This document shows, in pieces, positions 3,932-59,196 of a stretch of 64,000 bases of DNA. A model generated the notes under the pieces. It was not told the origin of the DNA. It saw nothing but the letters and a program-made list of their open reading frames with translations, and did not search any database. Position numbers and translations under genes: made by a program. The stretch spans positions 1 through 64,000 of IMG/VR virus record IMGVR_UViG_3300046454_000714; one strand, 5' to 3'. The stretch's first letter is position 1, and the number at the start of each line of letters is the position of its first letter. This stretch comes from a virus.

Positions 3932-5451
3932 ACGCCTTCTACGAGGACGATGCCGTCCAGCTGCACCTCGGTGACTGCCTCGACATCCTGCCGACCCTCG
4001 CCGACGCATCCGTCGACGCCGTGGTGACTGACGCGCCCTACGAGATTTCGATGATGAACCGCGCCTGGGACTCGACGGGCATCGCCTACAACGTCGACGT
4101 CTGGCGCCACTGCTGGCGCGTACTGAAGCCCGGCGGCCACCTGCTCGCCTTCGGCGGCACCCGCACCTACCACCGCATGACCGTCGCCATCGAAGACGCC
4201 GGATTCGAGATCCGCGACAGCCTCCACTGGATCTACGGAAGCGGCTTCCCCAAGGGGCAGGACATCGCCAAGTCCATCGACCGGCGCCGCGACGACCGAC
4301 AGCAGGTGCTGCAGGTCACGGCATGGCTGGCTGAGGTCATAGCCGCCACTGGATGGACGACCCGCCAGATGAACGAACTGTTCGGCTTTCAGAGCCAAGC
4401 AGGCCACTGGGTGACACAGGGCGTTGCTGCCGCAGTCCCCACGCCAGAGCAGTGGGTTCGGCTCCGTACCGAGATCGGCTTCGACGACGCCGAGATCCTT
4501 CCCCTGGTCGAGGCGCTGACGGGACGCAAGGGCGAGTTGGGCGAGGCATGGGCCCAGCGCGAGGTGATCGGACGGCGACACGCGGCCGAGCGCAAGAGCG
4601 ATCACCTGTACGGCGACTACAGCGGCGACGACCGGATCACCGCCCCCGCGACCGACGCCGCCCGGAAGTGGCAGGGCTGGAACACAGCGCTGAAACCGGC
4701 GCACGAGCCGATCGTCCTCGCCCGTAAGACAACCGGCTTCAACACGACCGCCGCCAACGTCCTGGAGCACGGCACGGGCGCCCTCCACGTCGACGTCTGC
4801 CGGACCATGGCCGGGCAGGACTACCGCGAGAAGTGCGCGTCCGTCGTCGGCATCGACAGCCCCCGCAACGGCGACACCCTCGGCGAGTGGACCGGGGCCC
4901 GCGAGGACTCCGCACATGCGGCCGGACGGTGGCCGACAAACGTGCTCCTCGGTCACGGGTCCGACTGCGTCGACGGCGGAGACTGTCAGCCCGGATGCCC
5001 CGTCGCGGAGATGGACGCACAGAGCGGCGTCAGCACGAGCCCGACCGGCTCCGTGAAGGGGCAGCGGCGCAGTGGCGGAATCATGGGACAGGCGGCCGGA
5101 AGCAAGATCAGCAACAGTGGCCACGGCGACACTGGAGGCGCATCCCGGTATTTCCCGATCTTCCGGTATGAGGCGAAAGCCCCGAAGGTCGAACGCCCCC
5201 GCCTCGCCGACGGCACCGCGCACACCACGGTCAAGCCGCTCACCCTCATGCGCTGGCTGGTCCGCCTCGTCACCCCGCCCGGCGGAACTGTCCTCGACCC
5301 GTTCGCGGGCTCCGGCACCACGTTGGAGGCCTGCCGACTGGAGAGCTTCCAATCCATCGGCATCGAGAAGGACCCGGCGCACGCCGAACTGTGCAAGATC
5401 CGCCTCGCCAAGCCGTACATGACGGACCTCTTCAGCGGGGGTGCGGCGTGA
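3928..5451 (+). CDS. Beta-class site-specific DNA methyltransferase (N4/N6 type)
   Basis: 507 residues. Catalytic motif IV appears as DAPY at residues 35-38 near the N-terminus, and the SAM-binding motif I, DPFAGSGTT, lies near residue 457. That IV-before-I order defines the beta group of amino-methyltransferases. Between them sits a long variable region, including a helical segment around residues 125-215 (TRQMNELFGFQSQAGHW), probably the target-recognition part. Such solitary phage enzymes protect DNA from host restriction. The last base of the stop is shared with the next ATG. Confidence 0.9.
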   Translation: MNAFYEDDAVQLHLGDCLDILPTLADASVDAVVTDAPYEISMMNRAWDSTGIAYNVDVWRHCWRVLKPGGHLLAFGGTRTYHRMTVAIEDAGFEIRDSLHWIYGSGFPKGQDIAKSIDRRRDDRQQVLQVTAWLAEVIAATGWTTRQMNELFGFQSQAGHWVTQGVAAAVPTPEQWVRLRTEIGFDDAEILPLVEALTGRKGELGEAWAQREVIGRRHAAERKSDHLYGDYSGDDRITAPATDAARKWQGWNTALKPAHEPIVLARKTTGFNTTAANVLEHGTGALHVDVCRTMAGQDYREKCASVVGIDSPRNGDTLGEWTGAREDSAHAAGRWPTNVLLGHGSDCVDGGDCQPGCPVAEMDAQSGVSTSPTGSVKGQRRSGGIMGQAAGSKISNSGHGDTGGASRYFPIFRYEAKAPKVERPRLADGTAHTTVKPLTLMRWLVRLVTPPGGTVLDPFAGSGTTLEACRLESFQSIGIEKDPAHAELCKIRLAKPYMTDLFSGGAA

Positions 5452-8458: not shown

Positions 8459-8541
8459 CCGCCCACCCCCGTCCGCGTGCCGGGCCCTGACACCCATCCC
8501 GCACATCGGCCGGACATGCACCCCAAGGCAGGACATAGCGA

Positions 8542-8561
8542 AGCCCCGCCGTGGCGGGGCT
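8542..8561. terminator. Hairpin between convergent genes
   Basis: AGCCCCGC / GCGGGGCT stem between the rightward methyltransferase gene and the leftward GIY-YIG gene. It lacks a T-run but is placed to separate convergent transcripts. Confidence 0.5.
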
Positions 8562-8580
8562 GGGAGGAGACGAGGTGACG

Positions 8581-9060
8581 TCAGTCGGACTTGACCACGA
8601 GCTCGCGCGTCTCGCCAAGGGCGGCCAGGGCGCGCTCGTAGAAGTCCAGCGACACGATCATGGCGTAGCGCTGCCCGTGGTTGAGCAGAGCAGTCGGCTG
8701 ATCGCGGTGCGCAACAGTGCAGACCACGCTGGTCAGCTTGGGGCGCGCGAGGGACAGCGAAATCTCCCTGACGCCATCCTCTGTCACGACATCTCGGATG
8801 TTCCGTCGGTCCACGCGCGGCGAGTAGATGCGGTTGAACTCGGGGTCTTCCGCACGCACGGCCTCTTCCTCGGTTTTGGCCGCGGTCGGCCGATCGTCGA
8901 ACCACTCCACCTCGCGGCGGGCAACCCGCGGCCACCACTCCTTCAGTTTGGAGTGCTGCTCGAAGCGCACCTCGGGCTGATGGCTGATGCCTATGTACAG
9001 CAAAACGCCGCCCTCGTCGAAGAGTCGGTACAGGGCGGTGCGGTGGTCATCGAGCCACAT
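8581..9060 (-). CDS. GIY-YIG nuclease fused to Phd/YefM-like antitoxin domain
   Basis: 159 residues. The N-terminal 75 residues match a GIY-YIG fold: ALYRLFD...LLYIGIS, later RFEQH, and PEFN as the closing motif. The C-terminal 55 residues (EISLSLARPKLTSVV...PTALLNHGQRYAMIVS...FYERAL) follow the Phd/YefM antitoxin pattern, a DNA-binding and autoregulatory fold. I infer a nuclease with a built-in operator-binding domain; it could be a mobile endonuclease or a regulator. It is followed leftward by the hairpin at 8542 and preceded by an HTH gene in the same leftward unit. Confidence 0.65.
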   Translation of the reverse strand: MWLDDHRTALYRLFDEGGVLLYIGISHQPEVRFEQHSKLKEWWPRVARREVEWFDDRPTAAKTEEEAVRAEDPEFNRIYSPRVDRRNIRDVVTEDGVREISLSLARPKLTSVVCTVAHRDQPTALLNHGQRYAMIVSLDFYERALAALGETRELVVKSD

Positions 9061-9075
9061 GGGCGGTCTCCTCGG

Positions 9076-9339
9076 TCAGGCCGGGGATTCGGCTCCCGGC
9101 TCGGCTTTCTTCCTGCTGGTGACGGTCGGCTCGCGCAGCGGCGCAAGGTCGTACTTGCGGGCAATGCGGCGGATCGTTTCGTAGCTGTAGTCCGTGGCTT
9201 TCGCCACGGCGGCCGGCTTCATGCCGCCACGAAGGGCGTCCACTACGGCCGCCTCGAAGTCCTTCGCGGCGGTCTGCTCGGTCGTTCGCTTCGCGGTGGC
9301 TGCCTGCTTCAGGCGGGTCACGACTTCCTCCTCGGTCAT
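9076..9339 (-). CDS. Small HTH DNA-binding protein
   Basis: 87 residues from MTEEEVVTRLKQAA. The segment GGMKPAAVAKATDYSYETIR is a helix-turn-helix that resembles transcriptional regulator or Hin-type domains, followed by a basic tail. An upstream ATG at 9396 is in frame but lies inside the perfect inverted repeat, so 9339 is preferred. Probably it or the neighbouring fusion protein binds that repeat. 15 bp separate it from the GIY-YIG gene. Confidence 0.6.
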   Translation of the reverse strand: MTEEEVVTRLKQAATAKRTTEQTAAKDFEAAVVDALRGGMKPAAVAKATDYSYETIRRIARKYDLAPLREPTVTSRKKAEPGAESPA

Positions 9340-25102: not shown

Positions 25103-25879
25103 ATGACACCGAACCCGGCACGAGAGCACCCCTACGAGAGGGTCGCCAACGAATTGCGCGCGGAGATCCTCAGGGGAGACCTCGCGCCCGGCGCGAAGCT
25201 GCCGTCCGAAAATGACCTCAAGGACCGCTTCGGCGTCACGCGGGCCACGGCGCGGAAGGGCATCGCCCTTCTCCGCATGGAAGGCCTCGTCACCTCGTTC
25301 CAGGGGAAAGGCGCGTTCGTCCGCGAGCGCCCGCACGTGAGCATGCGTCAGACCGGCAGCATCTACCGTGCGCGCCGATCGACTGGCGAGGCGAACTACA
25401 ACGCCGAGGCGAAGGCGCAGGGGCAGAGGCCCAAGCAGGTGATTCGCGAGGTCGTCGAGACGGACGCGCCGGAGAAGGTCGCGGACCGTTTCGGCGTCGA
25501 GCCCGGCGCTCCGGTGGTAGTCCGCCGCCTGCTGTTTACGGTCGACGACCAGCCCATGCAGCTCTGCGATAGCTACTACGAGCGCTCCCTTGCGGCTGGC
25601 ACGCCGCTTGCCGAGGCCAGGCTCATCAAGGGTGGCGCCAACTCGTTCATCGAAAACCCGGACGGGCCGATCGGTCGACGCATCGTCCAGTTCATCGAAG
25701 ACCTCGACATCCGGATGCCGTACCCGCACGAGATCGAGCTACTCGACATCCCGGCTGGCGTGCCCGTGGCGAAGGTGATGCGCACCGCTTACGACTCGGC
25801 GGGCGACGTCCTGGAAGTGCTCGACTCGATTGTTCCGTGCGATCGGCACACCTTCCGATACGTGATCGATGTGCCGTAG
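25103..25879 (+). CDS. GntR-family repressor with UTRA ligand domain (KorSA/HutC type)
   Basis: 258 residues. The winged helix spans residues 8-75 (YERVANELRAEILRGDLAPG, KLPSENDLKDRFGVTRATAR, GLVTSFQGKGAFV). The C-terminal UTRA domain runs from about 95 to 255 (VEPGAPVVVRRLLFTVDDQP ... LLDIPAGVPVAKVMRTAYD). In actinomycete plasmids and AICEs, GntR/UTRA proteins such as KorSA and KorA repress transfer genes; a similar role fits the TraB-like gene found downstream. AGGAG lies before GTG-ATG; ATG is chosen for better spacing. Confidence 0.85.
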   Translation: MTPNPAREHPYERVANELRAEILRGDLAPGAKLPSENDLKDRFGVTRATARKGIALLRMEGLVTSFQGKGAFVRERPHVSMRQTGSIYRARRSTGEANYNAEAKAQGQRPKQVIREVVETDAPEKVADRFGVEPGAPVVVRRLLFTVDDQPMQLCDSYYERSLAAGTPLAEARLIKGGANSFIENPDGPIGRRIVQFIEDLDIRMPYPHEIELLDIPAGVPVAKVMRTAYDSAGDVLEVLDSIVPCDRHTFRYVIDVP

Positions 25880-30737: not shown

Positions 30738-31034
30738 ATGCACGCCTATCTGATCACCGCGAAGCCCGGCCGGCTGCACCTCGCTGCCCGGTTCGCGGGC
30801 CGGTGGGCGCTGCGGGCCCTCGCCCTGACCGTCATGTGCGCGCTGGGGGCGGTCGTGTTCGCGGTCCGCTTCGCACGCCCGGTCATCAACTACGCGGCCA
30901 CCCGCATGGCGTGGCTGGAGCTGTGGGCCGCCTCGGTGACCGGGATCGGGCCGCTCGGGGCCGCTTTCGGCGCTGGGTTCACCGACGAACTCATCAAGGA
31001 ATTCCACCGCGCCCGCACCGGCGCGCCCGCCTGA
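30738..31034 (+). CDS. Membrane protein
   Basis: 98 residues, CCGAGAGGAG leader. Membrane helices at about 25-48 (ALRALALTVMCALGAVVFAV) and 65-85. Near the transfer module, so it may be a small Spd-like protein; not established. Confidence 0.5.
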   Translation: MHAYLITAKPGRLHLAARFAGRWALRALALTVMCALGAVVFAVRFARPVINYAATRMAWLELWAASVTGIGPLGAAFGAGFTDELIKEFHRARTGAPA

Positions 31035-31941: not shown

Positions 31942-33291
31942 ATGACCGTCAGCCCGCCCCAGACGAACGGCCACAAGCGGCCGGCCCTGCCCGTAATCGG
32001 GGACTGGCGGCCGGTCACACCCCAGCCCGAGCCCGTCGAGGAACAGCGCAGCCCGGAGCCGGCCCCCGTTGAGACGCCGGAACTGGTCGCCAAGGCGCAG
32101 GCCGAGGCAATCCGCGCCCAAGCGTGGGCCGACGCCGAAGCCAGGCGGATCGCCGCCGAGGCTGAAGCGGACGCGGTGCGCGTCAAGGCGGAGGAGGAGG
32201 CGCGCAAGCTGCGGCTCGTCAACGACCGCGCCGAGCGCCGGGCTCGCGAGGAAGAAGCTGCGTCCGAGGAGCGCATCGCCGAGTCCAACCGGCGCCGCGA
32301 CGAGGCCGAGCGGGCCCGCATCGCCGCCGCCCACCAGGCCCGGATCGACGAGCAGGTTGAGGCCCAGAAGGCGAAGGTCGTCGCCAAGGCGGACAAGAAG
32401 TGGCGCGGCTGGGCCATCGCCTTCTACACCCTGTGCGCCGCCGTCGCCCTACCGGTCCAGATCTCCGCGTTCTGGGACGAGCGCAAGCCGTGGATGGCCG
32501 GCGCCCCTGTCCTTCTGGAGATCGCCGCTCTCGTTGTCGCGTTCGGTACCGCCGCCGCGGTGGCGAACAAGCGCCCGCACTGGCACTTCCGTCTGATCAC
32601 CTGGGTGCTCGCGTTCATCGCGGCCAGCGTCAACCTGTGGCACGGCATGCAGGAGTTCGACCCGGCAACCGCCGTCGGTACCGCGCTCGCCTCCGTGTTC
32701 GGGCCCGGCGTGTGGGACCTGCATGAGCACGGGCGGATCCGTAAGCGCGACGGCGTGCCGACCCGGCGGGAGCGGAAGGCGCAGGAGAGGGCGGCGAAGG
32801 ACGAGGTCAAGCGGGCAGCTGCCGAAGAGGCACAGCGCGCCGCCGAGAAGGAGGCTGCAGCCAAGGCCGCCGAGGAGGCTGCGAGGAAGCTCGCCGATCG
32901 TCGCGCGAAGCTCTTCTCGAAGGTGTGGGAGCACGCCGAGAAGCTCGCCACGGATCTTGGCGAGACAGCCGTGACCGAGGCCATCTGGGAGCGCGCCAAG
33001 CTCGACGTCGAGGGCGCGCGGCCGGGCGAGTCGGCGGAGGTTTTCCGCATGCGTAACGCCGCCGAAGCGAGGGTCTCGGCGGCCCGCGAGAAGCGCTCCG
33101 TGAGCGGATCAACACAGCAGGTCGCTTCGCAAGTGCTCGGCTCCAAGATGCCTCGCGTCTACAACCCGCCCGCACGCCCCGGACGGCGCACCAAGGGCGA
33201 CGTGAAATACGCGCCTGGCGCCAGCCGTCAGGCATCCATCGCGGCCCGTGAAGCCGTCGCCAAGAAGACCGCCCAGAAGGACCCGTCATGA
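31942..33291 (+). CDS. DUF2637 membrane protein (SpdB-like transfer/spread protein)
   Basis: 449 residues. Long Ala/Glu/Arg coiled coils flank a membrane block: residues about 50-145 are coiled coil, about 155-255 hold four hydrophobic segments (AIAFYTLCAAVALPVQIS, VLLEIAALVVAFGTAAAV, LITWVLAFIAASVNLW), and a second coiled coil follows. This is the DUF2637 architecture found next to TraB-type genes of actinomycete conjugative plasmids and ICEs. It probably forms part of the DNA-spread apparatus at the septum. Overlaps the translocase gene by 4 bp; CCGAGAGGA leader. Confidence 0.8.
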   Translation: MTVSPPQTNGHKRPALPVIGDWRPVTPQPEPVEEQRSPEPAPVETPELVAKAQAEAIRAQAWADAEARRIAAEAEADAVRVKAEEEARKLRLVNDRAERRAREEEAASEERIAESNRRRDEAERARIAAAHQARIDEQVEAQKAKVVAKADKKWRGWAIAFYTLCAAVALPVQISAFWDERKPWMAGAPVLLEIAALVVAFGTAAAVANKRPHWHFRLITWVLAFIAASVNLWHGMQEFDPATAVGTALASVFGPGVWDLHEHGRIRKRDGVPTRRERKAQERAAKDEVKRAAAEEAQRAAEKEAAAKAAEEAARKLADRRAKLFSKVWEHAEKLATDLGETAVTEAIWERAKLDVEGARPGESAEVFRMRNAAEARVSAAREKRSVSGSTQQVASQVLGSKMPRVYNPPARPGRRTKGDVKYAPGASRQASIAAREAVAKKTAQKDPS

Positions 33292-35387
33292 GCCTCGACA
33301 TGAACCCGGAACTCCCGCCCGGCTGGGACCTGACGAAGGTCATTCCCGGTGAGCTCGAAGTCCCCGACGACCTGTCCGGGGAACTCGACGACGACATCGC
33401 GCCCGGCATGCTCCTGCCCTACGAGCCGCGGCTGCCCGTCCTGCGGAAGACCGGGTCGGCGGCCATGGTCGTCGCCGCCACGACCGGGCGCGCGGTCGGA
33501 CTGTCGGCGCGCGGCGGCTGGACGGCGACCCGCTGGTTCGTCGCCGGCGCCCGCGCCGTCTCCTACCTCGGTTGGCGCTATGTCCGCACGCACGACTACC
33601 AGGAGGAGATCGGCGGCGTCACCTCGTCGGCCGACCACCGGCGCAACGTCGACCTCCGACACCGGCGGTGGAAATTCCTCGGGTGGGCGGCCGGCGCGAC
33701 GGCGGCGCTCAATCTGGCCGGCTGGTGGGCGCTCGTTGCCCAGGCCGGGATGGCCGCTTCGGACTCGTGGTGGATCACGCCGGGCGTGCTCGCCCTGTCC
33801 GTGGCCGCCGCCGTCAGCTGGTACGGGCGCTACCGGCTCGGCAACCCAGGCCTCGCGCCCGAGCAGGCGATGGCGGACCAGGACGACCCGGAGTCGGATG
33901 AGCCGTTCCCGCTCGGCGTATGCCAGTCGCCGAGCCAAGTCGAAGAGTGCGTGTCCCGCGCACTCGCCTGGGAAGGCATCGGCACCCGCGCGGTTCGCGT
34001 GCTCGGCTACCGCGGCTGGGGCTGGGAGATCGACGTCATCCTCAAGGGCGCGGCGCCGGAGCAGGTCAACGCCGTGATGAGCAAGCTGGACTCCCACTTC
34101 GGCATCGGCAAGGGGCAGACCCTCTGCGAGCCGGACCCGGAGGACAACTCGCACCTCACGCTGCGTCTCGTGCAGTCGGATCCGTTCGCCGACATGCCCC
34201 GCCCGGCCGTGCACTCGCCGAACAGTCTGTCCGTGAAGGATGCGGTGGTGTACGGCCGCTGCATGGACGGCACTCTCTTCGAGGCGCGCCTGCGCGGAAT
34301 GTTCATGATGATCATCGGTTCGTCCGGGTCGGCGAAGACCAAGGGCGCACTGCGCTGCCTCGCCGAGGTCATCACCGCATGCCGGGACGCCATCGCCATC
34401 GAGATGGACCCGGTCAAGGACGGAATCCGCGAGTTCTCCGAGGTCATGGCGCTGCCGCCGATCCGCGGGCCGAAGGAGTGCACGGAGAAGCTGCGCTGGC
34501 TGCGCGATATCGCGTCGGCCCGCAACCAGGTGAAGTCGGCCAAGGAGATGGGGGACCTGTGGGAGCCCACCCCCGAAGAGCCCGCCATCTTCGGCATCGT
34601 TGACGAGTTCATCTTCCTGCCGCGCGAGGCGAAGGAGCTCGCCATTGAGATCCTCCGCATCGGGCGCGAGACCGGCGTCTACCTCCTCTTCGCCGCCCAG
34701 GAAGCCACGCAGGACTCCCTCGGCGACGCCATCGCCAGCGCCGTCACCTACCGGGTGATGCTCGCCGCGCGCAGCGAGGACATCCCCCTCGTCCTGGGCA
34801 AGGGGGCTTCCGCGATGGGCTACCGCCCGGACCGGTTGCGCCCGGCCGTCGATGACGAGCGGGTGTACGACGCCGGCAAGTTCTACGTCGCCGGCCCCGG
34901 CTTCGACCGGCCGGTGTTGTGGCGGTGGAACCGGTTCGAGCGCGACCAGATCCGGCAGGCGGTCAAGGACCGCAAGGACGCCGGCCGCCCTTGGTTCGAC
35001 CATGCCAGCCTTGCCGCCGCCAACCTGCTGCACGTGATCCGTCGGGACGGGGTGGCGGGTGGGGCCTCTCTGGCTGACCGCCTCGTTGCCCTCGATGAGC
35101 AGGGCGGCGTGGAGGACGCGGCGGTGGTCGCCGTCCTGCTTCGGGCCTTCGGCGGCAAGACGTTCCTGCCGACGACCGAGGAACTGCTTCCCGCGCTTGC
35201 CGACGCAGGCGTCCAGATGGATGCGAATGGTCTTGCCCAGCTCTTCCGGAAGCATGCCCCGTCGGTGACTGCGAGCCGTCAGGAGTGGGATGGCCGGCCG
35301 CAGGTCCGCGGCTGGTCCCGGGAGTCCGTCGAGCAGGCCGCAGCAGGGCTGTTGGACCCGGCTATGGCCCGTCTACGGGCCGCCTAA
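33288..35387 (+). CDS. FtsK/TraB-type DNA translocase
   Basis: 699 residues. Two membrane segments lie at about 128-147 (FLGWAAGATAALNLAGWWAL) and 158-178. The motor domain has Walker A GSSGSAKT at 344-351 and Walker B IFGIVDEFIF near 433-443; LLFAAQEATQ is the downstream sensor strand. The C-terminal 120 residues are helical and could be the winged-helix DNA-reader. In actinomycetes one such protein moves double-stranded plasmid DNA between mycelial cells. An alternative is a phage FtsK-like translocase for segregation. Position after a DUF2637 gene supports transfer. Repeats lie at its 3' end. Confidence 0.85.
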   Translation: MSLDMNPELPPGWDLTKVIPGELEVPDDLSGELDDDIAPGMLLPYEPRLPVLRKTGSAAMVVAATTGRAVGLSARGGWTATRWFVAGARAVSYLGWRYVRTHDYQEEIGGVTSSADHRRNVDLRHRRWKFLGWAAGATAALNLAGWWALVAQAGMAASDSWWITPGVLALSVAAAVSWYGRYRLGNPGLAPEQAMADQDDPESDEPFPLGVCQSPSQVEECVSRALAWEGIGTRAVRVLGYRGWGWEIDVILKGAAPEQVNAVMSKLDSHFGIGKGQTLCEPDPEDNSHLTLRLVQSDPFADMPRPAVHSPNSLSVKDAVVYGRCMDGTLFEARLRGMFMMIIGSSGSAKTKGALRCLAEVITACRDAIAIEMDPVKDGIREFSEVMALPPIRGPKECTEKLRWLRDIASARNQVKSAKEMGDLWEPTPEEPAIFGIVDEFIFLPREAKELAIEILRIGRETGVYLLFAAQEATQDSLGDAIASAVTYRVMLAARSEDIPLVLGKGASAMGYRPDRLRPAVDDERVYDAGKFYVAGPGFDRPVLWRWNRFERDQIRQAVKDRKDAGRPWFDHASLAAANLLHVIRRDGVAGGASLADRLVALDEQGGVEDAAVVAVLLRAFGGKTFLPTTEELLPALADAGVQMDANGLAQLFRKHAPSVTASRQEWDGRPQVRGWSRESVEQAAAGLLDPAMARLRAA

Positions 35388-35490
35388 CCCCCGTCTTTGC
35401 CCCGTCTATGGCCCGACTAGGCGATCAAGAGAAGCCGCAGGTAGCCGGGCCATAGACGGGTCTTAGTCGGGCCAAAGACGGCCCATAGAC
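35364..35490. repeat. Repeat cluster downstream of traB-like gene, candidate clt/oriT
   Basis: Variants of CCGTCTATGGCCC occur in both orientations: CCGTCTTTGCCC near 35391, CCCGTCTATGGCCCGACTA at 35401-35419, then CGGGCCATAGACGGG (35446-35460), TAGTCGGGCCAAAGACGG (35464-35481) and GGCCCATAGAC (35480-35490). A related TATGGCCCGTCTA overlaps the end of the translocase gene. This fills the 150-bp gap 35388-35537. Actinomycete clt loci consist of short repeats read by TraB, so this is the natural candidate. Confidence 0.6.
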
Positions 35491-35537
35491 ACCCTATTGA
35501 TCCACATATGCGAAGTTCTTGAGAGGGAGTCCCGATC

Positions 35538-36396: not shown

Positions 36397-36885
36397 ATGC
36401 TCGACCTGCCCGAGCCGAAGCCCACCGCCACCGCGACCGGGCAGGACCGCAACGCCATCATCGACCAGCGCGCCGACCAGTTCCTCGCCGCCATCAACGA
36501 CGCCGCAGCCACCTACTACCGCGACGACAGCCCGACCCCCACCGTCGGCACCACCCCACCCGTACCCCAGCCCGGCCGGCCGCCGATGAGCCAGAGAGCC
36601 ACCGACGCCAGCGCGTTGATGCTGTCCGGCGGCATCGCCTCCGTGTTCGTCAGCGGCGGCATCAGCCTCATCCTCTGGTCGTCCGGGCACGCCGATTCGA
36701 CCGTCATCGCCTGGATGAGTGCTGGCCCGCCCATGGCCTTCCTGTCGCTGAAAGCCCTCATCAAGGGCGTCAAGCGCGCGACCGTACCCGACATCCACGT
36801 GCACAACTACAGCGGGCCCGTCACCCAGCACCACCGCACCTCGAACAACCGCAGCATCTGGAACAAGAACATCAACAGCCAGTGA
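36397..36885 (+). CDS. Membrane protein, possible Spd-like
   Basis: 162 residues, GAAGGAG before the ATG. Hydrophobic segments at about 75-95 (LMLSGGIASVFVSGGISLIL) and 103-120; the C-terminus is His/Asn-rich (VHNYSGPVTQHHRTSNN). Architecture and location resemble small spread proteins of Streptomyces plasmids. Tentative. Confidence 0.55.
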   Translation: MLDLPEPKPTATATGQDRNAIIDQRADQFLAAINDAAATYYRDDSPTPTVGTTPPVPQPGRPPMSQRATDASALMLSGGIASVFVSGGISLILWSSGHADSTVIAWMSAGPPMAFLSLKALIKGVKRATVPDIHVHNYSGPVTQHHRTSNNRSIWNKNINSQ

Positions 36886-51403: not shown

Positions 51404-51859
51404 ATGCCCGCCAATGGACCACTGCCGAAGGACCCCGGTCAGCGACGCCGGCGCAACGCCGACTTCGTAGCACCGACGACCCTTCCGGCCGACGGGCCTG
51501 ACGGACCGACCCCTGAACTGCCAGGCGGCCACGACTACGACAGTCGCACGCTCGCCTGGTACGAGACGTGGCGGAACAGCCCGCAGGCTGCAACGTTCCT
51601 GATGACGGACTGGCAGCGGCTGCACATGCTGGCCGAGCTGGTTCAGCAGTACTGGGAGGAACCCAGGAAGGATCTGCTCTCGGAGATCCGGCTGAATGAG
51701 GCTTCCCTCGGAGGCACGGCCGCAGACCGCATTCGGCTTCGCTGGACCGTTGCCGAGCCGGACATCGAGCCCGCTGTACGCCGTTCTGCCGGCGCCCGCG
51801 GTGGGGCTTCTCGCCGTGACCGGGTTCTGAAGGTCGTCGATGGCCAGGCGGATAGCTGA
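51404..51859 (+). CDS. Terminase small subunit
   Basis: 151 residues; ATG chosen because the in-frame GTG at 51395 abuts the GAGGAG RBS. Central WYETWRNSPQAATFLMTDWQ and RLHMLAELVQQYWEEP match actinophage small terminases, which bind packaging DNA and regulate the large subunit. The basic C-terminus overlaps the large-subunit gene by 20 bp. Confidence 0.8.
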   Translation: MPANGPLPKDPGQRRRRNADFVAPTTLPADGPDGPTPELPGGHDYDSRTLAWYETWRNSPQAATFLMTDWQRLHMLAELVQQYWEEPRKDLLSEIRLNEASLGGTAADRIRLRWTVAEPDIEPAVRRSAGARGGASRRDRVLKVVDGQADS

Positions 51860-53459
51860 CCCGGACCGCTTCACCTCGCTCGGCTTCGAGGCCATCGACT
51901 GGATCGAGCACTACCTCTGCCACGGGCCCGGCGACGTACAGGGCGAGCCGTTGCTCATCGACGACGAGATGGCCGCCTTCATCGCCAAGGCTTACCAGCT
52001 CGACCCGGTGACGGGCCGCCGCAAGGTCAACCGTGCGTTCCTGTCCCGACCGAAGGGCCGGGCCAAGAGCGAACTCGCCGGCGCGCTGGTGTGTTTTGAG
52101 GCCCTGGGGCCGTGCCGCTTCGACGGCTGGGATGCCGAGAGCGACCCGGTAGGCCGCGCACAGGTGTACCCGTTCATCCGCTGCCTCGCGACGGAAGAGA
52201 ACCAGGCGGGCAACACCTACGACAACGTCACCGCGATGCTGGAGCACCTCGTCGAGAACTTCGGCGACGAGTTCCCAGGCATCGACTTGGGTCGTTCGGC
52301 GCAGACATCGAGCCGCATCTTCATCGAGGGCGGCGGCGAGATCGTGCCGTCGACATCGTCGGGCGCGGCCAAGGATGGTGGCAAGGAGACGTTCGCCGTC
52401 TTCGATGAGATCCACCTCTACGTCCATCCCGAGTTGCGGGCGATGCACAAGACGGTGCGCCGCAACCTGGTGAAGCGGCGCAGGGCCGAGCCGTGGTCGC
52501 TGGAGACATCGACGATGTATGCGGTCGGCGAGAACTCGGTAGCTGAGGCGACGCACGAGTACCACAAGGCGGTCGTCTCGGGCCGGGTGCGCGACGGCGG
52601 CCTGCTCTTCGACCACCGCGAGGCCCCGCACGTCGAGGATCTGCACGACGACGACCAGCTCATGCCCGCGCTGGAGTTCGTGTACGGCGACGCGGCGAAG
52701 TGGATGGACCTGGAGCGGATCGCCAGCGACATGCGCGAGCCCGACACCGATCCGGCAGACGCCCGGCGCTACTTCCTCAACCAGCCCGGCACTGCCTCGG
52801 CGAAGGCCTTCGACCCGGGCCGCTGGCGGGAGTTGGCGGACTCGCGCTTCATCGTTCCGGCGAAGGAAGCGATCTCGATCGGCTTCGACGGCTCGAAGTG
52901 GAGCGACTCAACGGGCTTTGTGGCAACCCAGCTGGATACGGGCCACCAATGGGTGCTCGGCGTCTGGGAGTCGCCGGCGAACAAGCAGGAAGCCGAGTCG
53001 TGGGAAGTCCCTGAGGTCGAGGTCAACGCCGTCCTGGATGACGCGATGAACACGTGGCGGGTCGTGCGCCTGTACGCGGACCCGGCGTACTACGAGGAGA
53101 CGATCGCGGGCTGGGCCGGCAAGTACGGCCCGAAGGTGGTCACCGAGTGGTGGACGCACCGGCGCCGGCAGATGGCGTTCGCCCTGCGCGCGTACAAGAC
53201 GGCGATGACGGGCGGCGAGCTGTCGCACGACGGCAGTGACGCCTTCGCACGGCACATCGCCCAGGCGGTGAAGCGGAACGCGGGTGTGAAGGACGACGAG
53301 GGCAAGCCGATGTGGGTGATCCAGAAGGATCGCCACGATTCGCCCCGAAAGATCGACCTCGCGATGGCGGGCTGCCTGTCCTGGGAGGCCAGGCGGGACG
53401 CGATCAAGGCGGGCGGCAACGAGCCGCCGCGCTCCCGGAAAACAACTGTGATGCGCTGA
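51840..53459 (+). CDS. Terminase large subunit
   Basis: 539 residues. The ATPase has a variant Walker A (SRPKGRAKSE, about 69-78), conserved FIRCLATEENQA, and Walker B FAVFDEIH. The nuclease domain begins at AISIGFDGSKWSDSTGF, with further acids in YADPAYYEE. It cuts the concatemer and powers DNA into the prohead docked on the portal. Standard gene order follows. Confidence 0.92.
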   Translation: MARRIADPDRFTSLGFEAIDWIEHYLCHGPGDVQGEPLLIDDEMAAFIAKAYQLDPVTGRRKVNRAFLSRPKGRAKSELAGALVCFEALGPCRFDGWDAESDPVGRAQVYPFIRCLATEENQAGNTYDNVTAMLEHLVENFGDEFPGIDLGRSAQTSSRIFIEGGGEIVPSTSSGAAKDGGKETFAVFDEIHLYVHPELRAMHKTVRRNLVKRRRAEPWSLETSTMYAVGENSVAEATHEYHKAVVSGRVRDGGLLFDHREAPHVEDLHDDDQLMPALEFVYGDAAKWMDLERIASDMREPDTDPADARRYFLNQPGTASAKAFDPGRWRELADSRFIVPAKEAISIGFDGSKWSDSTGFVATQLDTGHQWVLGVWESPANKQEAESWEVPEVEVNAVLDDAMNTWRVVRLYADPAYYEETIAGWAGKYGPKVVTEWWTHRRRQMAFALRAYKTAMTGGELSHDGSDAFARHIAQAVKRNAGVKDDEGKPMWVIQKDRHDSPRKIDLAMAGCLSWEARRDAIKAGGNEPPRSRKTTVMR

Positions 53460-53474
53460 CGACGGGGGTGACCT

Positions 53475-54860
53475 ATGGCCCTCGATCTGGAACCGGATGC
53501 CTGGTTGAAGCGGCTGATCCACTGCCATGACGGTGACCTGCCGCAGTTGAGGCTGATGGACAGCTACTACGAGGGCACGCAGCCTCTGTCGTATTTGGCT
53601 CCGGAGATTCAGTCGGAACTCTCGGACCGGATGCGCCAACTGGTCATCAACTGGCCGCAGTTGGTCGTGGATGCCTTGGATGAGCGTCTGGACGTCGAGG
53701 GCTTCCGGTACGCGGACTCCGAGACGACCGCGGCGGATCTGTGGGACGTGTGGCAGGCCTCCGACATGGACGAGGGTTCGCAGCAGGCCCACGTGGATGC
53801 TCTGGCCCTGAAACGCTCCTACGTGATCATCGGCGCGAATGAGGACGACGAGGCGAACCCGATCGTGACCGCGGAGTCGGCGCTGGAGGTGTTCGCGGAG
53901 AGGGATCCGCGGACTCGCCAGGTGGTGGCGGCGGTGAAGCGTTGGGATGAGCCGTCGGCGGCCGGGTCGGCGCCGGTGAAGTGGGCGACGCTGTATCTGC
54001 CGAATGCGCGGATGACGTTCGAGCAGCAGAAGGGCGCTTGGGTCGAGGTCGACCGGGATGAGCACAACCTCGGCGAGGTGCTGGTTGTTCCGTTGGCGAA
54101 CCGGCCGCGACTGCGGCACCTGGATGGCACGTCCGAACTCCGCTCGGTCATCCCGATCTCGGACGCGGCCTGCAAGATCGCCTCGGACATGATGGTCAGC
54201 GCGGAGTATCACGCGATGCCGCGCCGGTGGGCGACGGGCATGTCGCGTGACGACTTCGCCGACGAGAACGGGCAACCGCTGGGCGCGATGTCGGCGCTGG
54301 CAGGCCGCATGTGGACGAACGAGAGCAACGAGGTGAAGTTCGGGCAGTTCCAGGAGGCCCAGCTCTCCAACTTCCACGAAACGATCAACGTTCTCGCCCG
54401 CCTGGTGGCCGCGATCACGGGCCTGCCTCCCGCATTCCTCGGCCTGGCGACGGATCAGCCTCCGTCTGCGGATGCGATCCGCGCGTCGGAGGCCCGCCTG
54501 GTGAAGCGCGCGGAGCGCCGTCAGCGTGCGTTCGGCGAAGCCTGGGAGCGGGTCATGCGCCTCGTTCTCCTGGTGCGGGACGGCGAGTTGGACCCGCGGA
54601 CCCGCAAGCTCGAAACCGTGTGGCGGGATCCGTCGACGCCGACGTTCGCGCAGAAGGCCGACGCGGTCGTCAAGCTGCACGCCTCCGGCATTCTGCCGAC
54701 GGAGCAGGCGTGGGAGGACTTGGGCTACAGCGCAGTGCAGCGGGCCCGGATGCGGGGCATGCAGGACGATGCCCTGACCCGGATGACGGCCATGGACCTG
54801 CACCAGATGTCGACAGCCCAGGATCCGGCGCCCGTTGAGGCGCCTCCCGTCGGCGGCTGA
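53475..54860 (+). CDS. Portal protein
   Basis: 461 residues. Features of SPP1/HK97-type portals: RLMDSYYEGTQPLSYLAPEI at the start, INWPQLVVDALDERLDVEGF, and the long stem/wing helices with ARLVAAITGLPPAFLGLATD (about 312-331). The C-terminus lists METHs typical of clip-crown regions. It forms the dodecameric ring at the capsid vertex. Followed 2 bp later by the MuF-like gene. Confidence 0.92.
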   Translation: MALDLEPDAWLKRLIHCHDGDLPQLRLMDSYYEGTQPLSYLAPEIQSELSDRMRQLVINWPQLVVDALDERLDVEGFRYADSETTAADLWDVWQASDMDEGSQQAHVDALALKRSYVIIGANEDDEANPIVTAESALEVFAERDPRTRQVVAAVKRWDEPSAAGSAPVKWATLYLPNARMTFEQQKGAWVEVDRDEHNLGEVLVVPLANRPRLRHLDGTSELRSVIPISDAACKIASDMMVSAEYHAMPRRWATGMSRDDFADENGQPLGAMSALAGRMWTNESNEVKFGQFQEAQLSNFHETINVLARLVAAITGLPPAFLGLATDQPPSADAIRASEARLVKRAERRQRAFGEAWERVMRLVLLVRDGELDPRTRKLETVWRDPSTPTFAQKADAVVKLHASGILPTEQAWEDLGYSAVQRARMRGMQDDALTRMTAMDLHQMSTAQDPAPVEAPPVGG

Positions 54861-54862
54861 TC

Positions 54863-56854
54863 GTGGCCGTCGAGACGCAGGCGCACCAGGACATCATCGA
54901 CGCCTATGGCCGGTCTCAGCAGCGGGCTGTCATCCAGACGACGGTGACGCTGCAGCGGCTGTGGAAGGAGCTTGCGGCCACGGATCTCTCACGGTCGTGG
55001 CTCGGGGGTCTGGGTGCGGCGATGGTGCGGGCCGTGTCGGCCGGCCAGTTGGTGGCGGCGTCGACGGGCCAGAAGTACATCGAGGCGATGGTCCGCGGGG
55101 ATGGGCTGGGCAACAACTACATGGAGCAGGCGTCGCATGTCGACGCCCGCTCGTTCTCGGGTGCCGCGTCGGACGGCCGGGCGCTGGACAGCCTGCTGTA
55201 TCTGCCGGTGATTCGCACGAAGACGCTGATCGGTAACGGGCTGACGTTGCAGGAGGCGATGCTCGGCGGCAGGGCCCAGCTCTTGCAGGTGGCCGCTTCG
55301 GAGGTCGCGGATGCGGGCCGTGGTGCGGCCAGTGTGTCGATGATCGCGAACCGGTCGGTGACGGGCTACGTGCGGACTGTCCGCTCGGGGGCCTGTGCGC
55401 GGTGCGCGATTCTCGCTGGCCGCTGGTACCGGTGGAATGCCGACTTCGAACGGCACAAGAGGTGCTTCCCCGCCGGTGTCGTCGTGTCAGGCCCGCGCAC
55501 GCTGGCGGCCACGCGGCGGCGGTATGAGGGGGAACTCGTCATCCTCACGACGGCGAGTGGCCAGGAGCTCCCCGCCACCGGCAATCACCCGATACTGACG
55601 CGACGCGGCTGGGTCGCTGCCAATCTCATCCAGGAAGGCGACGAGGTAGTCCGCAGCCTCCGGCCGGAGGGCGCTGCGCCCCTCGTAGTCCCAGATCATC
55701 AGCAGATGCCATCCCGCATCGAGGATGTATGGGCTACGGAGAGCGTGGCGGGCGTGCTTCGCGGCGTGCCAACCACCGCCGAGGATTTCCACGGCGACGG
55801 AGGCCACGGCGAAGTCGACGTTGTAGGGCCCAACCGCTTTCTGTGGGGTGAAGTCGAGGCAGCGCTCGCGCAGCATCTGGGCGAAGAGGTCCTCACCGTC
55901 GGAGCGTTGGGCTCGATCGGCATTCCGCTCTCGGCTCAGCGCGGCCACTTTGAGCGTGTCACCGGAGATCGGTTTGCCGCGGACGGCGTCATGGGCGGCC
56001 TGCGTGATCCTGGCCCGCTCCTCGGGGCTGGCCTTGGACATGCGCAGGGCATTGGCTTCAGCGCGGTCGCGGAGATGCGTCCCGGCCTGCTTGAGGTGGC
56101 GCCGCACGACGCCTCGCATGACGCCATAGCGGATGGATATGGACTGTTCGCTCTCTCCGCTCTCGTAGGCGGCAACGAGTTCAGCGGTGGGGAGATCTAT
56201 GGCGCAGGGCCGCGGTGGGATGCCGCGGGCCTGGCGGGCTCGATGGAAGACGCTGAGCGAGATGCCCGAGTTGGCCGCGAGCTCCTTGAGCGGCTCGCCG
56301 GACAGGTAGAGCTCGATCGCGTGGTCGAGGCGCGCAGGGTCAGTTGGTCCGGGCATGTGTATGACCTCAATTCGACAGAGGGCTGGTTCAACGCGAACGG
56401 CCTAATCGTATCTAACTGTCAGTGCTACGGGGTGCCAGCTACAGAGGCTCGCCCGGGCCGTCACACGAACCCGATGTCGTTCTTTCAGGGTCTGTCGCGC
56501 GCGGAGCAGGATCGCCGGTTCACGATCGGCGGCGCGGAGGCGATCCGGAACGGCGCCGACATCTACTCGGTGGTGAACGCGGGCCGTTCGACGATCACGC
56601 TGGACGCCTACGGCAAGAAGGTCGTGGCGACGCTCGAAGGCACGACGAAGCGCGGCGCGTTCTACCAGCAGATGCTGCGTGAGGCCGAGCAGCGCACCGG
56701 GCAGAGGTTCGCCCGGAACGGCTACGACCTGGAGCGTGGCCTGCCCCGCTTTCACCTGCGGACGCCACGGCTCACGCCCGGCGAGATCCTGCGTCTCTCG
56801 GATGACCGTAACGAGCTGATCCGCCTGCTACGGCGTTTCGGCTACCTGTCGTAG
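54863..56854 (+). CDS. MuF-like minor capsid protein interrupted by an intein
   Basis: 663 residues as translated, GTG start; about 345 after removal of the intein (residues 201-518). The N-extein is helical and ends in the metal-binding pair C178-x2-C181 and H198. The C-extein resumes at C519-Q-C521, so splicing restores C-x2-C...H-x2-C-x-C of the phage Mu F/VG15 family. The C-extein continues with TNPMSFFQGLSRAEQDRRF and a helical end. These proteins sit inside the head and may be injected. The gene is only functional if splicing occurs. Confidence 0.88.
   Translation: MAVETQAHQDIIDAYGRSQQRAVIQTTVTLQRLWKELAATDLSRSWLGGLGAAMVRAVSAGQLVAASTGQKYIEAMVRGDGLGNNYMEQASHVDARSFSGAASDGRALDSLLYLPVIRTKTLIGNGLTLQEAMLGGRAQLLQVAASEVADAGRGAASVSMIANRSVTGYVRTVRSGACARCAILAGRWYRWNADFERHKRCFPAGVVVSGPRTLAATRRRYEGELVILTTASGQELPATGNHPILTRRGWVAANLIQEGDEVVRSLRPEGAAPLVVPDHQQMPSRIEDVWATESVAGVLRGVPTTAEDFHGDGGHGEVDVVGPNRFLWGEVEAALAQHLGEEVLTVGALGSIGIPLSAQRGHFERVTGDRFAADGVMGGLRDPGPLLGAGLGHAQGIGFSAVAEMRPGLLEVAPHDASHDAIADGYGLFALSALVGGNEFSGGEIYGAGPRWDAAGLAGSMEDAERDARVGRELLERLAGQVELDRVVEARRVSWSGHVYDLNSTEGWFNANGLIVSNCQCYGVPATEARPGRHTNPMSFFQGLSRAEQDRRFTIGGAEAIRNGADIYSVVNAGRSTITLDAYGKKVVATLEGTTKRGAFYQQMLREAEQRTGQRFARNGYDLERGLPRFHLRTPRLTPGEILRLSDDRNELIRLLRRFGYLS
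55463..56416 (+). mobile_element. Intein in MuF metal site
   Basis: 318 residues, Cys201 to Asn518, followed by Cys519. Block A begins CFPAGVVV, block B is LPATGNHPILT (the TxxH region), block F/G is GHVYDLNSTEGWFNANGLIVSN. The usual penultimate His is Ser here, a known but less common variation. The sense strand has no LAGLIDADG or HNH domain between blocks B and F; it reads about 220 residues including AEDFHGDGGHGEVDVV. The endonuclease appears to be on the opposite strand (next entry). Confidence 0.85.
55487..56356 (-). CDS. Antisense homing endonuclease nested inside the intein (Vsr/DUF559-like)
   Basis: 289 codons on the minus strand, wholly within the intein. Start ATG has GAGG 8 bases upstream. 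Two HTH-like units come first (LSGEPLKELAANSGISLSVF, then ESGESEQSISIRYGVMRGVV), followed by a NUMOD-like SPEERARITQAAHDAVRGKP. The nuclease domain begins GEDLFAQML and has FTPQKAVGPYNVDFAV, VAVEILGGGWH and YILDAGWHLLMIWD. This matches the Glu, Asp and Glu positions of Vsr/DUF559 PD-(D/E)XK enzymes. Codons align exactly opposite sense codons, a register that favours long shadow ORFs, yet the domain match argues for a real gene. Confidence 0.7.
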   Translation of the reverse strand: MPGPTDPARLDHAIELYLSGEPLKELAANSGISLSVFHRARQARGIPPRPCAIDLPTAELVAAYESGESEQSISIRYGVMRGVVRRHLKQAGTHLRDRAEANALRMSKASPEERARITQAAHDAVRGKPISGDTLKVAALSRERNADRAQRSDGEDLFAQMLRERCLDFTPQKAVGPYNVDFAVASVAVEILGGGWHAAKHARHALRSPYILDAGWHLLMIWDYEGRSALRPEAADYLVAFLDEIGSDPAASRQYRVIAGGGELLATRRREDDEFPLIPPPRGRQRARA

Positions 56855-56933
56855 CCCGCAGGCCGCCGCATCACGACCCAAGTTTGGCCGCGCGCAAGGC
56901 GCGGTCTCTGATCCCGCAATGGGAGTTCCATCC

Positions 56934-57674
56934 ATGAGTGCGACTCGTACCCGCTGGCTGCCCGCTGCTCAGAGCGTGGGCTGGTTCCGGCTCAACCGTC
57001 ACGAAGACCCCGACCCCGCCGACCCGGAGCCTGCTCCGGACCCGGCAGCCGATCCGGCAGATCCGGATCCCGAGCCTGACCCGGCAGGCGACCCGGCGGA
57101 CCCCGAGCCTGATCCGGAGCCTGAAGGCGCGGACAAACTCGGCGATGAGGGCAAGAAGGCTCTCGACCGGATGAAGGCCGAGCGTGCCGCGGCCAAGAAG
57201 ACTGCCGCTGCCGAGAAGAAGCGCGCCGACGACCTTGCACGCAAGGTGCAGGAGTTCGAGGACGCGCAGAAGTCTGAGGCGGAAAAGCTCGCGGCGAAGG
57301 TCGAACGGTCTGCCCAGCGGGAGGCCAAGGCGACCGCGCGTGCCGTGGCGGCCGAAGTGCGGGCCGCGGCCGGCGAGTTCGCCGACCCGGGCGACGCCGT
57401 GGATGTGCTGATGCGCGACCCCAGCCAGTACGTCGACGCGGACGGCGAGATCGACATGGACGCCATCGAGACGGCCCTGACGGATCTGCTGGGCCGGAAG
57501 CCGCACTGGAAGAAGCCTGAGCCGGCCGCCCCGGTGGTTGAGCCGAAGCAGAAGCTGAAGCCGGATCCGGGCCAGGGCTCGCGTGGCGCTCCGGCTCCCG
57601 TGGACTACCGCACCGCCTCGAAGGAAGAGGTCGCTGCGGAGCTCGGCAAATTCGGCTACCGGCAGCGCGTGTGA
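56934..57674 (+). CDS. Capsid scaffolding protein
   Basis: 246 residues. Acidic Asp/Pro repeats (DPDPADPEPAPDP, residues 25-65) are followed by a long coiled coil (about 75-150; KKTAAAEKKRADDLARKVQE) and a basic end (HWKKPE...). This is the typical profile and position of a scaffold directly before the capsid gene. It is probably cleaved or released during maturation, perhaps by the Prp-like protein encoded next. Confidence 0.8.
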   Translation: MSATRTRWLPAAQSVGWFRLNRHEDPDPADPEPAPDPAADPADPDPEPDPAGDPADPEPDPEPEGADKLGDEGKKALDRMKAERAAAKKTAAAEKKRADDLARKVQEFEDAQKSEAEKLAAKVERSAQREAKATARAVAAEVRAAAGEFADPGDAVDVLMRDPSQYVDADGEIDMDAIETALTDLLGRKPHWKKPEPAAPVVEPKQKLKPDPGQGSRGAPAPVDYRTASKEEVAAELGKFGYRQRV

Positions 57675-57862
57675 TCACGGTCCGGGCCCGGTTGGGCGGC
57701 GGACGCACCTCGATTGAGGTGTCCGGTCACGACGAGCCTGCTGCTGGGGGTCGCGTCTGCGCCGCCGTGACGGCCATCACCCAAACCGCGCTGCTGGGCC
57801 TGGATCAGTACGCCCAGCAGTACCCGGACCAAGTGTCCATAGAGATCATCACTGAGGAGTGA
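57671..57862 (+). CDS. Prp-like cysteine protease
   Basis: 63 residues, GTG overlapping the scaffold stop. TSIEVSGHDEPAAGG, RVCAAVTAITQTALLGL and DQVSIEIITEE follow the ribosomal-processing cysteine protease Prp, whose catalytic His and Cys correspond to H20 and C30. The host enzyme trims ribosomal protein L27, and Prp of Staphylococcus is known to cleave phage scaffold and capsid. Here it lies between scaffold and capsid genes, so I infer a prohead protease. It is shorter than full-length Prp, which is about 105 residues. Confidence 0.65.
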   Translation: MITVRARLGGGRTSIEVSGHDEPAAGGRVCAAVTAITQTALLGLDQYAQQYPDQVSIEIITEE

Positions 57863-57864
57863 GA

Positions 57865-59196
57865 ATGACCCCCACCATGTCCGCGGTTCGCCCGCGGCTC
57901 CACCGCGCCCCGCGGCCGTGGTTCAAGCTGGACCGGCACGCCGGTGTCCGGCCGTCCCTGCCCGCCGGCATCCAGGCGATGCTGCAGAACGGCATCCTCG
58001 ACCGTGTCTTCCGCGACGCGCTGGTGCCGAACTTCCTGTTCCCTCAGATCGCAGACGCTGAGCCGTGGATGGGCGGGCTGGGCGACACGAAGACGTTCAC
58101 CCGCAAGGGTCTGCTCGCCCCGGTGACGACTCCGGTGACGGGTTCGGACCCGTCGGCGGCGACGTACAGCATCGAGCAGTGGTCCGTGACGATGGACCAG
58201 TACGCGAACTCGATGGACACCAACATGCTCGGCTCGGCGATGGCGCTGGCCAGCAAGTTCCTGGCGGACGTCGAGAACCTGGGCATCAACGCCGGGCAGA
58301 CCATCAACCAGGTGGCCCGCAACAAGCTGTACAAGGCGTATGCGGGCGGCCGGACCTGGGTGACCACGGCCGGCTCCTCGGACACGTCGATGATCGTCAA
58401 CTCGACGGACGGCTTCACCACCGTCATGGTCAACGGCGTCCCGACCGCCGTGTCCGCGTCGAACCCGCTGACCGTGTCGGTCGCGGGTGTCGCGAACACG
58501 GTGACCGGCGTCAACACCGGCACCAGCACGCTGACCCTGGGCACCGCCCGGGTGGATGTCGCCGGTGACTACGTGACCGCGGCGAACGCCCCGGTCTCGG
58601 TCCGGGCGACCGGTAACTCGCCCTACGACCTGTCGTCGTCGAACGTCGTGACGTTCGCGAACTTCCGGGCCGCGGTGGCGCGTCTGCGGAAGATGGCGGT
58701 TCCGACGGTGGGCGGCTACTACGTCGCCCACATCGACCCGGACACGGAGGCGCAGCTTTTCGCGGACGCCGACTTCAAGCAGGCCCTTCAGGGCCGCGTG
58801 GACTCGCCGATCTACACGGAGCTGTCCATTGGCCGGTTCGCGGGCATCGACTGGGTGCGCAACCTGGAGGCGCCGACCATCACCAACGGCGGCTCTGCGG
58901 GCACCCTGACGGTGCACCGGCCGATCGTGCTGGGTGCGAACGCGCTGATGTCGGCGCCGTTCGAGGGCACCAACACCCTTCTCGCCGGTACCGGCGTCGA
59001 GGACGTGCCGGAGATCCGCACCATCAACGCCGCCCCCGGTGTGGACGTCACCCTGCTGGTGCGCCCGGCGCAGGACCGGCTGCAGCAGGTCATCGCCTCG
59101 ACCTGGTCGTGGGTCGGCGACTACGGCGTTCCGTCGGACGCGGGCACGGGCGACGCGGCGCTGTACAAGCGCGGCGTCGTCATCGAGCACGCCTGA
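57865..59196 (+). CDS. Major capsid protein (P22-coat-like)
   Basis: 443 residues; ATG chosen with GAGGAG 5 bp upstream in place of the GTG at 57859. About 30 basic N-terminal residues (RPRLHRAPRPWFKLDRH) may be a removable propeptide. The body resembles P22-type coat proteins: ILDRVFRDALVPNFLFPQIA, DTKTFTRKGLL, a Thr/Val-rich insertion domain at about 155-245, and YVAHIDPDTEAQLFADADF. The end (DAALYKRGVVIEHA) fits the family. Confidence 0.9.
   Translation: MTPTMSAVRPRLHRAPRPWFKLDRHAGVRPSLPAGIQAMLQNGILDRVFRDALVPNFLFPQIADAEPWMGGLGDTKTFTRKGLLAPVTTPVTGSDPSAATYSIEQWSVTMDQYANSMDTNMLGSAMALASKFLADVENLGINAGQTINQVARNKLYKAYAGGRTWVTTAGSSDTSMIVNSTDGFTTVMVNGVPTAVSASNPLTVSVAGVANTVTGVNTGTSTLTLGTARVDVAGDYVTAANAPVSVRATGNSPYDLSSSNVVTFANFRAAVARLRKMAVPTVGGYYVAHIDPDTEAQLFADADFKQALQGRVDSPIYTELSIGRFAGIDWVRNLEAPTITNGGSAGTLTVHRPIVLGANALMSAPFEGTNTLLAGTGVEDVPEIRTINAAPGVDVTLLVRPAQDRLQQVIASTWSWVGDYGVPSDAGTGDAALYKRGVVIEHA

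Follow-up and report, generated by a model that had tools for sequence, protein, structure and literature searches.

We analysed a 64-kb window (64,000 nucleotides, positions 1 to 64,000 of the 87,527-bp virus record IMGVR_UViG_3300046454_000714) in which the gene for an FtsK/TraB-type DNA translocase runs into an array of inverted 11-bp repeats. Comparison with relatives suggests that this integrative temperate Streptomyces phage probably carries a plasmid-type transfer module for double-stranded DNA (dsDNA), with the array as the transfer site (clt) onto which the translocase would be loaded. Among the relatives, the repeat unit follows the predicted winged-helix domain at the C-terminus of the translocase, and neither its motor nor the equally close downstream gene. 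The features that carry this argument are given below in window coordinates.

35358–35423, plus strand: left arm of the array, six units of 11 bp (CCGnCTAnGGC-like) in a strict 11-bp register
35438–35492, minus strand: right arm of the array, five inverted units of 11 bp in a strict 11-bp register
35436–35442, plus strand: CGCAGGT element at the array centre, enriched in the downstream windows of relatives
33288–35387, plus strand: FtsK/TraB-type DNA translocase of 699 amino acids (P0001), assigned by comparison of its AlphaFold2 model with the FtsK motor and by plasmid_TraB as best model
35070–35357, plus strand: predicted winged-helix domain at the C-terminus of the translocase, the putative reader of the repeats, from its AlphaFold2 topology and its covariation with the array

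A phased array that follows the C-terminal domain

The array comprises 11 units (six forward and five reverse) at 35358–35492 and starts 30 nt inside the translocase gene. An initial annotation, made from the sequence alone, had placed repeats in both orientations directly after the translocase, and this holds. Its 13-mer corresponds to one 11-bp unit plus two bases; a search for this word with three mismatches gave 35 matches versus 29 expected, which is not significant alone. The array is the best place for a lag of 11 in the entire window (z 7.3 versus all windows), and the per-locus autocorrelation there reaches z 8.4, 6.2 and 2.4 at lags 11, 22 and 33, respectively. We rejected the possibility that the array is a chance product of GC-rich sequence, as period 3 rather than 11 dominates coding control windows.

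For the comparison among relatives, L006 (a near copy of L005), L007–L009, L019–L021 and L024 (from the same records as kept loci) and L037–L041 (copies of L013–L017) were dropped before counting. The repeats follow the translocase stop codon in all 19 complete phage-type loci, a set that excludes L018, whose locus is cut by a contig end. By inspection, an array is also present in most plasmid-type relatives, including those of pFP1 type. Over 47 loci, mean z values were 3.2, 2.1 and 1.6 at lags 11, 22 and 33, and coding controls from those loci peaked at multiples of 3. At the level of single loci, autocorrelation was highest at lag 11 in 19 of 50; of the 15 loci whose C-terminal domain is phage-type, 14 had this maximum, and in L013 lag 11 ranked second. 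In 26 of 51 loci, the top hexamer lay above the highest value among 50 shuffles. The spacing between the stop codon and the next gene takes values of 153–154, 164–166 and 174–176 nt. Because it thus moves in steps of approximately 11 nt, it appears as if whole repeat units have been gained and lost.

The arrays share a short element and differ in their repeat words. Of 51 downstream windows, 42 contain GCAGGT, compared with a mean of 8.1 and a maximum of 15 in shuffles; this count includes the plasmid-phage pZL12 although it lacks an array. The longer CGCAGGT occurs in 36 of the 51 (shuffle mean 2.6; in-gene control windows, 1–3). The repeat words are CGTCTA-like in the window's relatives, CGTCC in L016 and L044, CCGGTC in L018 and L026, TGCTC in L015, L046 and L047, GATC-centred in L017, and CTCTAC in pFP1.

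With the shared CGCAGGT element masked, a partial Mantel analysis that controlled for motor distance linked distances between arrays to those between C-terminal domains (r 0.57–0.61, p 0.0005, n 47), whereas array and motor correlated at 0.06–0.14 once the C-terminal domain was controlled for. The coupling also held when only noncoding bases were used and when the set was de-replicated to 39 loci; a coding control window gave 0.13–0.15 against the same domain. For the 17 loci in which the downstream gene could serve as the second neighbour (L005, where no downstream gene was found, was left out), the array correlated with the C-terminal domain at r 0.85 and with the downstream gene at r −0.11. 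When four loci with exchanged domains were removed, the values were 0.59 (p 0.002) and −0.07. Hitchhiking of the array with C-terminal coding DNA was rejected from the tests with noncoding bases only, with the last 15 residues removed, and against the downstream gene.

These four phage-type relatives (L015, L046, L047 and L017) retain a phage-type motor and downstream gene, and carry a plasmid-type C-terminal domain (37–49% identical to the domains of the five plasmid-type loci compared) together with matching repeat words. Specifically, L045 and L046 are 84% identical in the motor and 58% in the downstream gene, with C-terminal domains that cannot be aligned (35% over 37 amino acids); L044 and L017 share 56% in the DUF2637 protein, 83% in the motor and 52% in the downstream gene, and 28% over 86 amino acids in the C-terminal domain. 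Upstream-gene values of L046 and L027 were not used in this comparison. In these loci, the C-terminal domain and the array were exchanged together between flanks that are still phage-type. The swapped loci fall into two separate groups of the motor tree, which by inspection suggests at least two exchanges. A phage portal gene lies near the translocase in two of the four, L046 and L047 (genomes G386 and G174).

The translocase, its relatives and the surrounding module

The AlphaFold model of the translocase (mean predicted local distance difference test score, pLDDT, 73.9) matched the FtsK motor 6t8g in Foldseek (E 9e-16, template modelling score 0.67, target), and its PHROG matches are FtsK/SpoIIIE-like families. 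The translocase of the NBC_00285 plasmid is 34% identical over 394 amino acids. The initial annotation had described an FtsK/TraB-type translocase with membrane segments; the model supports the motor fold and shows long N-terminal helices of low confidence, but a clear membrane segment was not borne out. The C-terminal ~100 residues were predicted as helix-helix-strand-helix-helix-strand-strand-helix, a winged-helix topology (pLDDT 77.8). Most structures matched by this domain were winged-helix proteins, although the matches were weak (best E 0.12, Z 5.7); Foldseek returned none under E 0.001, and FtsK gamma was absent among the matches listed. In a plasmid translocase (L011:4981-7572), an FtsK_gamma domain was observed near the N-terminus (residues 20–73, E 2e-18), an unusual place, beside the C-terminal region.

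Close relatives of the translocase were found in viral contigs and Streptomyces genomes. A homolog was present in 33 of 392 sampled Streptomyces genomes, eight of them phage-type as defined by E below 1e-270 and place in the motor tree; the 36 match rows comprised 28 new loci that were read, two copies of known loci, and six without a locus that were left unread. A portal homolog lay on the same contig, approximately 7–21 kb from the translocase, in five of 11 relative genomes tested, and was absent, on another contig or distant in the other six. Among cultured phages, the motor matched 89 Streptomyces phage records, and the 40 of these that were listed are annotated as FtsK-like with ~30–32% identity. 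Searches for closely related phage records returned nothing beyond short matches or matches of 72% identity.

In the motor tree, a quick tree with Shimodaira–Hasegawa-like approximate likelihood ratio (SH-aLRT) support only and with several long outgroup branches of unsure placement, the window's translocase falls within its own phage-type group, and homologs from lytic phages fall inside the plasmid clade. Kinship with the lytic-phage proteins, which a phylogeny proposed in the initial annotation was to check, was thus rejected, and relatives that have retained the gene have also retained the repeats. The two lytic Streptomyces phage loci examined (L012 and L029) encode an FtsK-like translocase of the plasmid clade and have neither the array nor the CGCAGGT element; they probably represent a separate capture by lytic phages, put to another use.

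The remaining features of the module and its surroundings are the following.

25103–25879, plus strand: GntR/UTRA regulator, candidate repressor of the module (Pfam UTRA 1e-20, GntR 2e-19)
30738–31034, plus strand: small membrane protein of 98 amino acids with one hydrophobic segment, the first conserved module gene
31942–33291, plus strand: DUF2637-like membrane protein of 449 amino acids
35538–36173, plus strand: conserved Lys/Arg-rich, Cys-containing protein downstream of the array, at the outer edge of the module (53–74% identity)
36397–36885, plus strand: homolog of pZL12.70c (42% over 158 amino acids, E 2e-13; phrog_19266)
51840–59196, plus strand: head and packaging operon (terminase, portal, protease, major capsid; PHROGs matches), which places the module in a phage

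The module extends over 30.7–36.2 kb, with a small membrane gene, the DUF2637-like protein and the translocase preceding the array. We compared 20 genomic contexts (16 phage-type and four plasmid). The DUF2637-like gene and the translocase were each present in 19 of them, and the 98-amino-acid gene (38–88% identity) and the gene at 35538 each in 15, corresponding to 15 of the 16 phage-type contexts; most other neighbouring genes occurred in few. The module therefore stays together, whereas the genes around it change.

Several gene assignments of the initial annotation could be refined. Its small membrane genes are supported by hydrophobic segments in the 98-amino-acid open reading frame (ORF) and in a 69-amino-acid ORF at 31710. 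The GntR and UTRA domains of the proposed repressor were confirmed, but its gene lies 6 kb upstream, outside the 31942–35490 region to which it had been assigned. The DUF2637 membrane protein stands by position and by alignment with a DUF2637-annotated protein of pFP1 (33% over 109 amino acids, E 5e-15), but not by a domain match, as DUF2637 (PF10935) gave none at E<1 in Pfam. The profile scores 18.5 bits on the pFP1 homolog and 26.2 bits on that of HF10, with a cutoff of 22.8. This protein (P0002) had no match among 50,697 phage records. Its closest plasmid counterpart (42%) is encoded in L033, the 125-kb plasmid of NBC_01310, where a GCGACG-type array with CCGCAGGTCA lies behind a DUF3631-annotated gene near dnaB.

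Proposed function and alternatives

In pWTY27, the TraA translocase binds a clt of direct and inverted repeats, with both required for transfer, and this clt consists of the last 16 bp of traA plus 159 bp (PMC3583192). At clt, TraB of Streptomyces plasmids occupies 8-bp repeats as a hexamer and directs dsDNA transfer (PMC4170104). As in the window, the pWTY27 site spans the end of the translocase gene and ~160 bp downstream; it differs in having 7-bp repeats of another sequence and in not belonging to a phage. Because the module contains the parts of the pWTY27/TraB systems in like order, the best reading is that the translocase would bind the array as its transfer site, in the manner of TraB. 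Its kinship with plasmid transfer modules leads us to infer that the array serves transfer of the phage. The earlier proposal of a Streptomyces plasmid-type transfer set with a candidate transfer site inside a phage is supported.

In such a mechanism, the translocase, assisted by the DUF2637-like and small membrane proteins, would assemble into a hexameric motor located at the cell envelope or at a septum. The C-terminal winged-helix domain would dock on the 11-bp inverted repeats just downstream of its own gene, with one contact per helical turn, and the motor would thereby be loaded on circular, excised phage DNA. The motor would then drive this DNA into an adjacent hypha or compartment, in the way that TraB acts from clt, while the GntR/UTRA protein, for which we infer a KorA-like role, probably keeps the module off. 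The phage may in this manner spread from cell to cell without virus particles. A broader proposal, which we regard as possible but rather doubtful, is that naked dsDNA of the infecting or excised phage is pumped through septa or hyphal contacts, bypassing lysis and receptors, and that lineages retarget by swapping the cassette of reading head and docking array.

Several observations weigh against the transfer-site interpretation. The Pfam FtsK_SpoIIIE family had no match in P0001 at E<1, and the best NCBIfam model, plasmid_TraB, scored only 35.6 bits (E 4e-9) versus a cutoff of 800. A simple hydropathy scan of the translocase gave no clear membrane segment. CGCAGGT is absent from the array-bearing loci L013, L026 and L066, and L022, L028 and L042 have C for T. 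Repeats are weak in some plasmid-type loci, none were found in L060, and pZL12 has no such array right after its FtsK-like gene. With respect to the profile score, a pFP1-type plasmid homolog likewise falls below the plasmid_TraB cutoff (25.5 bits), which suggests that this model covers another branch; the translocase is proposed to work like TraB, not to belong to that equivalog.

The translocase and array could instead move phage DNA within one mycelium only, through septa or in partition, which would amount to spreading rather than conjugation. Spd-type membrane partners of Streptomyces plasmids serve intramycelial spreading (PMC4170104), and virion genes already give the phage a route from host to host. 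However, the same kind of motor and site on plasmids carries out donor-to-recipient transfer; sequence does not separate the two, and we consider restriction to one mycelium unlikely. Less probable still is that the coupling of array and C-terminal domain reflects physical linkage alone, as one inherited segment and without recognition: the two are adjacent, so that one crossover moves both, but the downstream gene is equally close and shows no coupling, and the correlation persists among loci without a swap. Direct and inverted repeats are also iteron-like, and RepA of pWTY27 binds such repeats (PMC3583192). A replication origin or partition site lying next to the translocase by chance nevertheless appears very improbable, given that the array sequence follows the C-terminal domain rather than the other neighbour, is exchanged together with that domain, and lies at the translocase stop codon in every complete phage-type locus. 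Finally, a role of the array as an operator bound by the GntR repressor, or in the control of the gene at 35538 directly downstream, has the least to recommend it: although a GntR/UTRA regulator is encoded in the same genome, eleven helically phased units would exceed the needs of an operator, GntR/UTRA homologs occur in just 11 of the 20 contexts (pFP1 included), and the array does not correlate with the downstream gene.

Phage context and relation to known systems

The record encodes a tailed, temperate phage, with genes for the terminase large subunit, portal, head protease, major capsid protein, tape measure, endolysin and a tyrosine integrase; that head genes accompany the module, as stated initially, is thus upheld by the operon at 51840–59196. 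The integrase ORF lies at the end of the record and runs into it, and the two record ends share no 13-base word in the 3 kb compared per side. In genome G355, a 10.1-Mb chromosome, a translocase 78% identical to that of the window, a portal and an integrase lie between two copies of a 35-bp direct repeat 92,130 bp apart, bounding a 92.1-kb element. Because all three genes are located between the repeats, this fixes the module inside an integrated prophage. The label of phage-plasmid suggested initially finds no support, considering this integrated relative and the tyrosine integrase in the window's own record. A tRNA attachment site was sought and not found; the 35-bp repeat was found instead. 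By eye, the frames flanking this repeat at the prophage ends (L070 and L072) resemble halves of one ABC-permease-like host gene, which suggests that integration probably interrupts that gene. The copy in Streptomyces sp. M41 is a separate contig of 86,583 bp whose end overlap is limited to one 15-base word. No partition pair was detected among the proteins scanned, which cover part of the ORFs.

Beside the main integrase, L004 encodes a serine resolvase (3340-3993), a short tyrosine-recombinase-like ORF (8460-8906) and a small GntR ORF (8903-9160). The window also includes a phage-borne N6/N4 DNA methyltransferase (3928-5451); its profile matches cover two regions that lie apart from each other, a pattern that points to an insert.

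Modules of pFP1 type (NC_006912, the NBC_00285 plasmid and HF10 plas1) share with the window, in this order, a GntR gene, small genes, a DUF2637-type protein, an FtsK-like translocase and an inverted array with CCGCAGGTCA or TGCAGGTCA. They differ in that the 34% identity is confined to the motor, with another C-terminal domain and repeat unit (CTCTAC in pFP1), in an extra N-terminal FtsK_gamma in the NBC_00285 translocase, and in their annotated stretches, where virion genes were not noted. pZL12 (GQ919031) is reportedly a conjugative Streptomyces plasmid-phage with a transfer function. It is a circular phage record of ~90 kb that, like the phage described here, has an FtsK-like gene and a GntR regulator, and the shared gene pZL12.70c lies beside that FtsK-like gene. 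However, its FtsK-like protein is only remotely similar (family profile E 2e-15) and is not followed by a phased array, ParA/ParB are annotated, and its head genes are not detectably related at E 1e-3. The present family thus appears to differ from pZL12 in integration in at least one member, in a conserved phased cis site and in its translocase lineage. The best phage-database match of the motor (~30% identity) is the FtsK-like translocase of Braelyn-type phages; Braelyn is a lytic Streptomyces phage of cluster BE. Unlike the window's translocase, the Braelyn-type protein lies in the plasmid clade and has no array, and the annotation shows no DUF2637 gene next to it.

Actinomycete integrative and conjugative elements (AICEs) of pSAM2 type likewise combine an integrase with a TraB-type translocase (PMC3218068), but measured 11.9–36.2 kb in one survey (PMC9513070) versus ~87–92 kb with virion genes here. 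A survey of such elements relied on PF01580 (PMC3218068), which the window's translocase escapes. No clt motif is reported even for pSAM2, the archetypal AICE (PMC9513070). In the open-licence literature, we found no description of this phage family, of the CGCAGGT element, or of the joint exchange of C-terminal domain and array.

Together, an array after the gene, a spacing of ~11 bp, a core of CGCAGGT and joint inheritance with the final 100 residues provide a candidate clt for each family member, and the question of which DNA the translocase reads becomes a family-wide prediction. pZL12, the single well-studied plasmid-phage, would gain many independent relatives, at least one of them integrative. 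Whether phages spread by conjugation could thus be tested directly in strains that grow in culture, Streptomyces sp. M41 among them.

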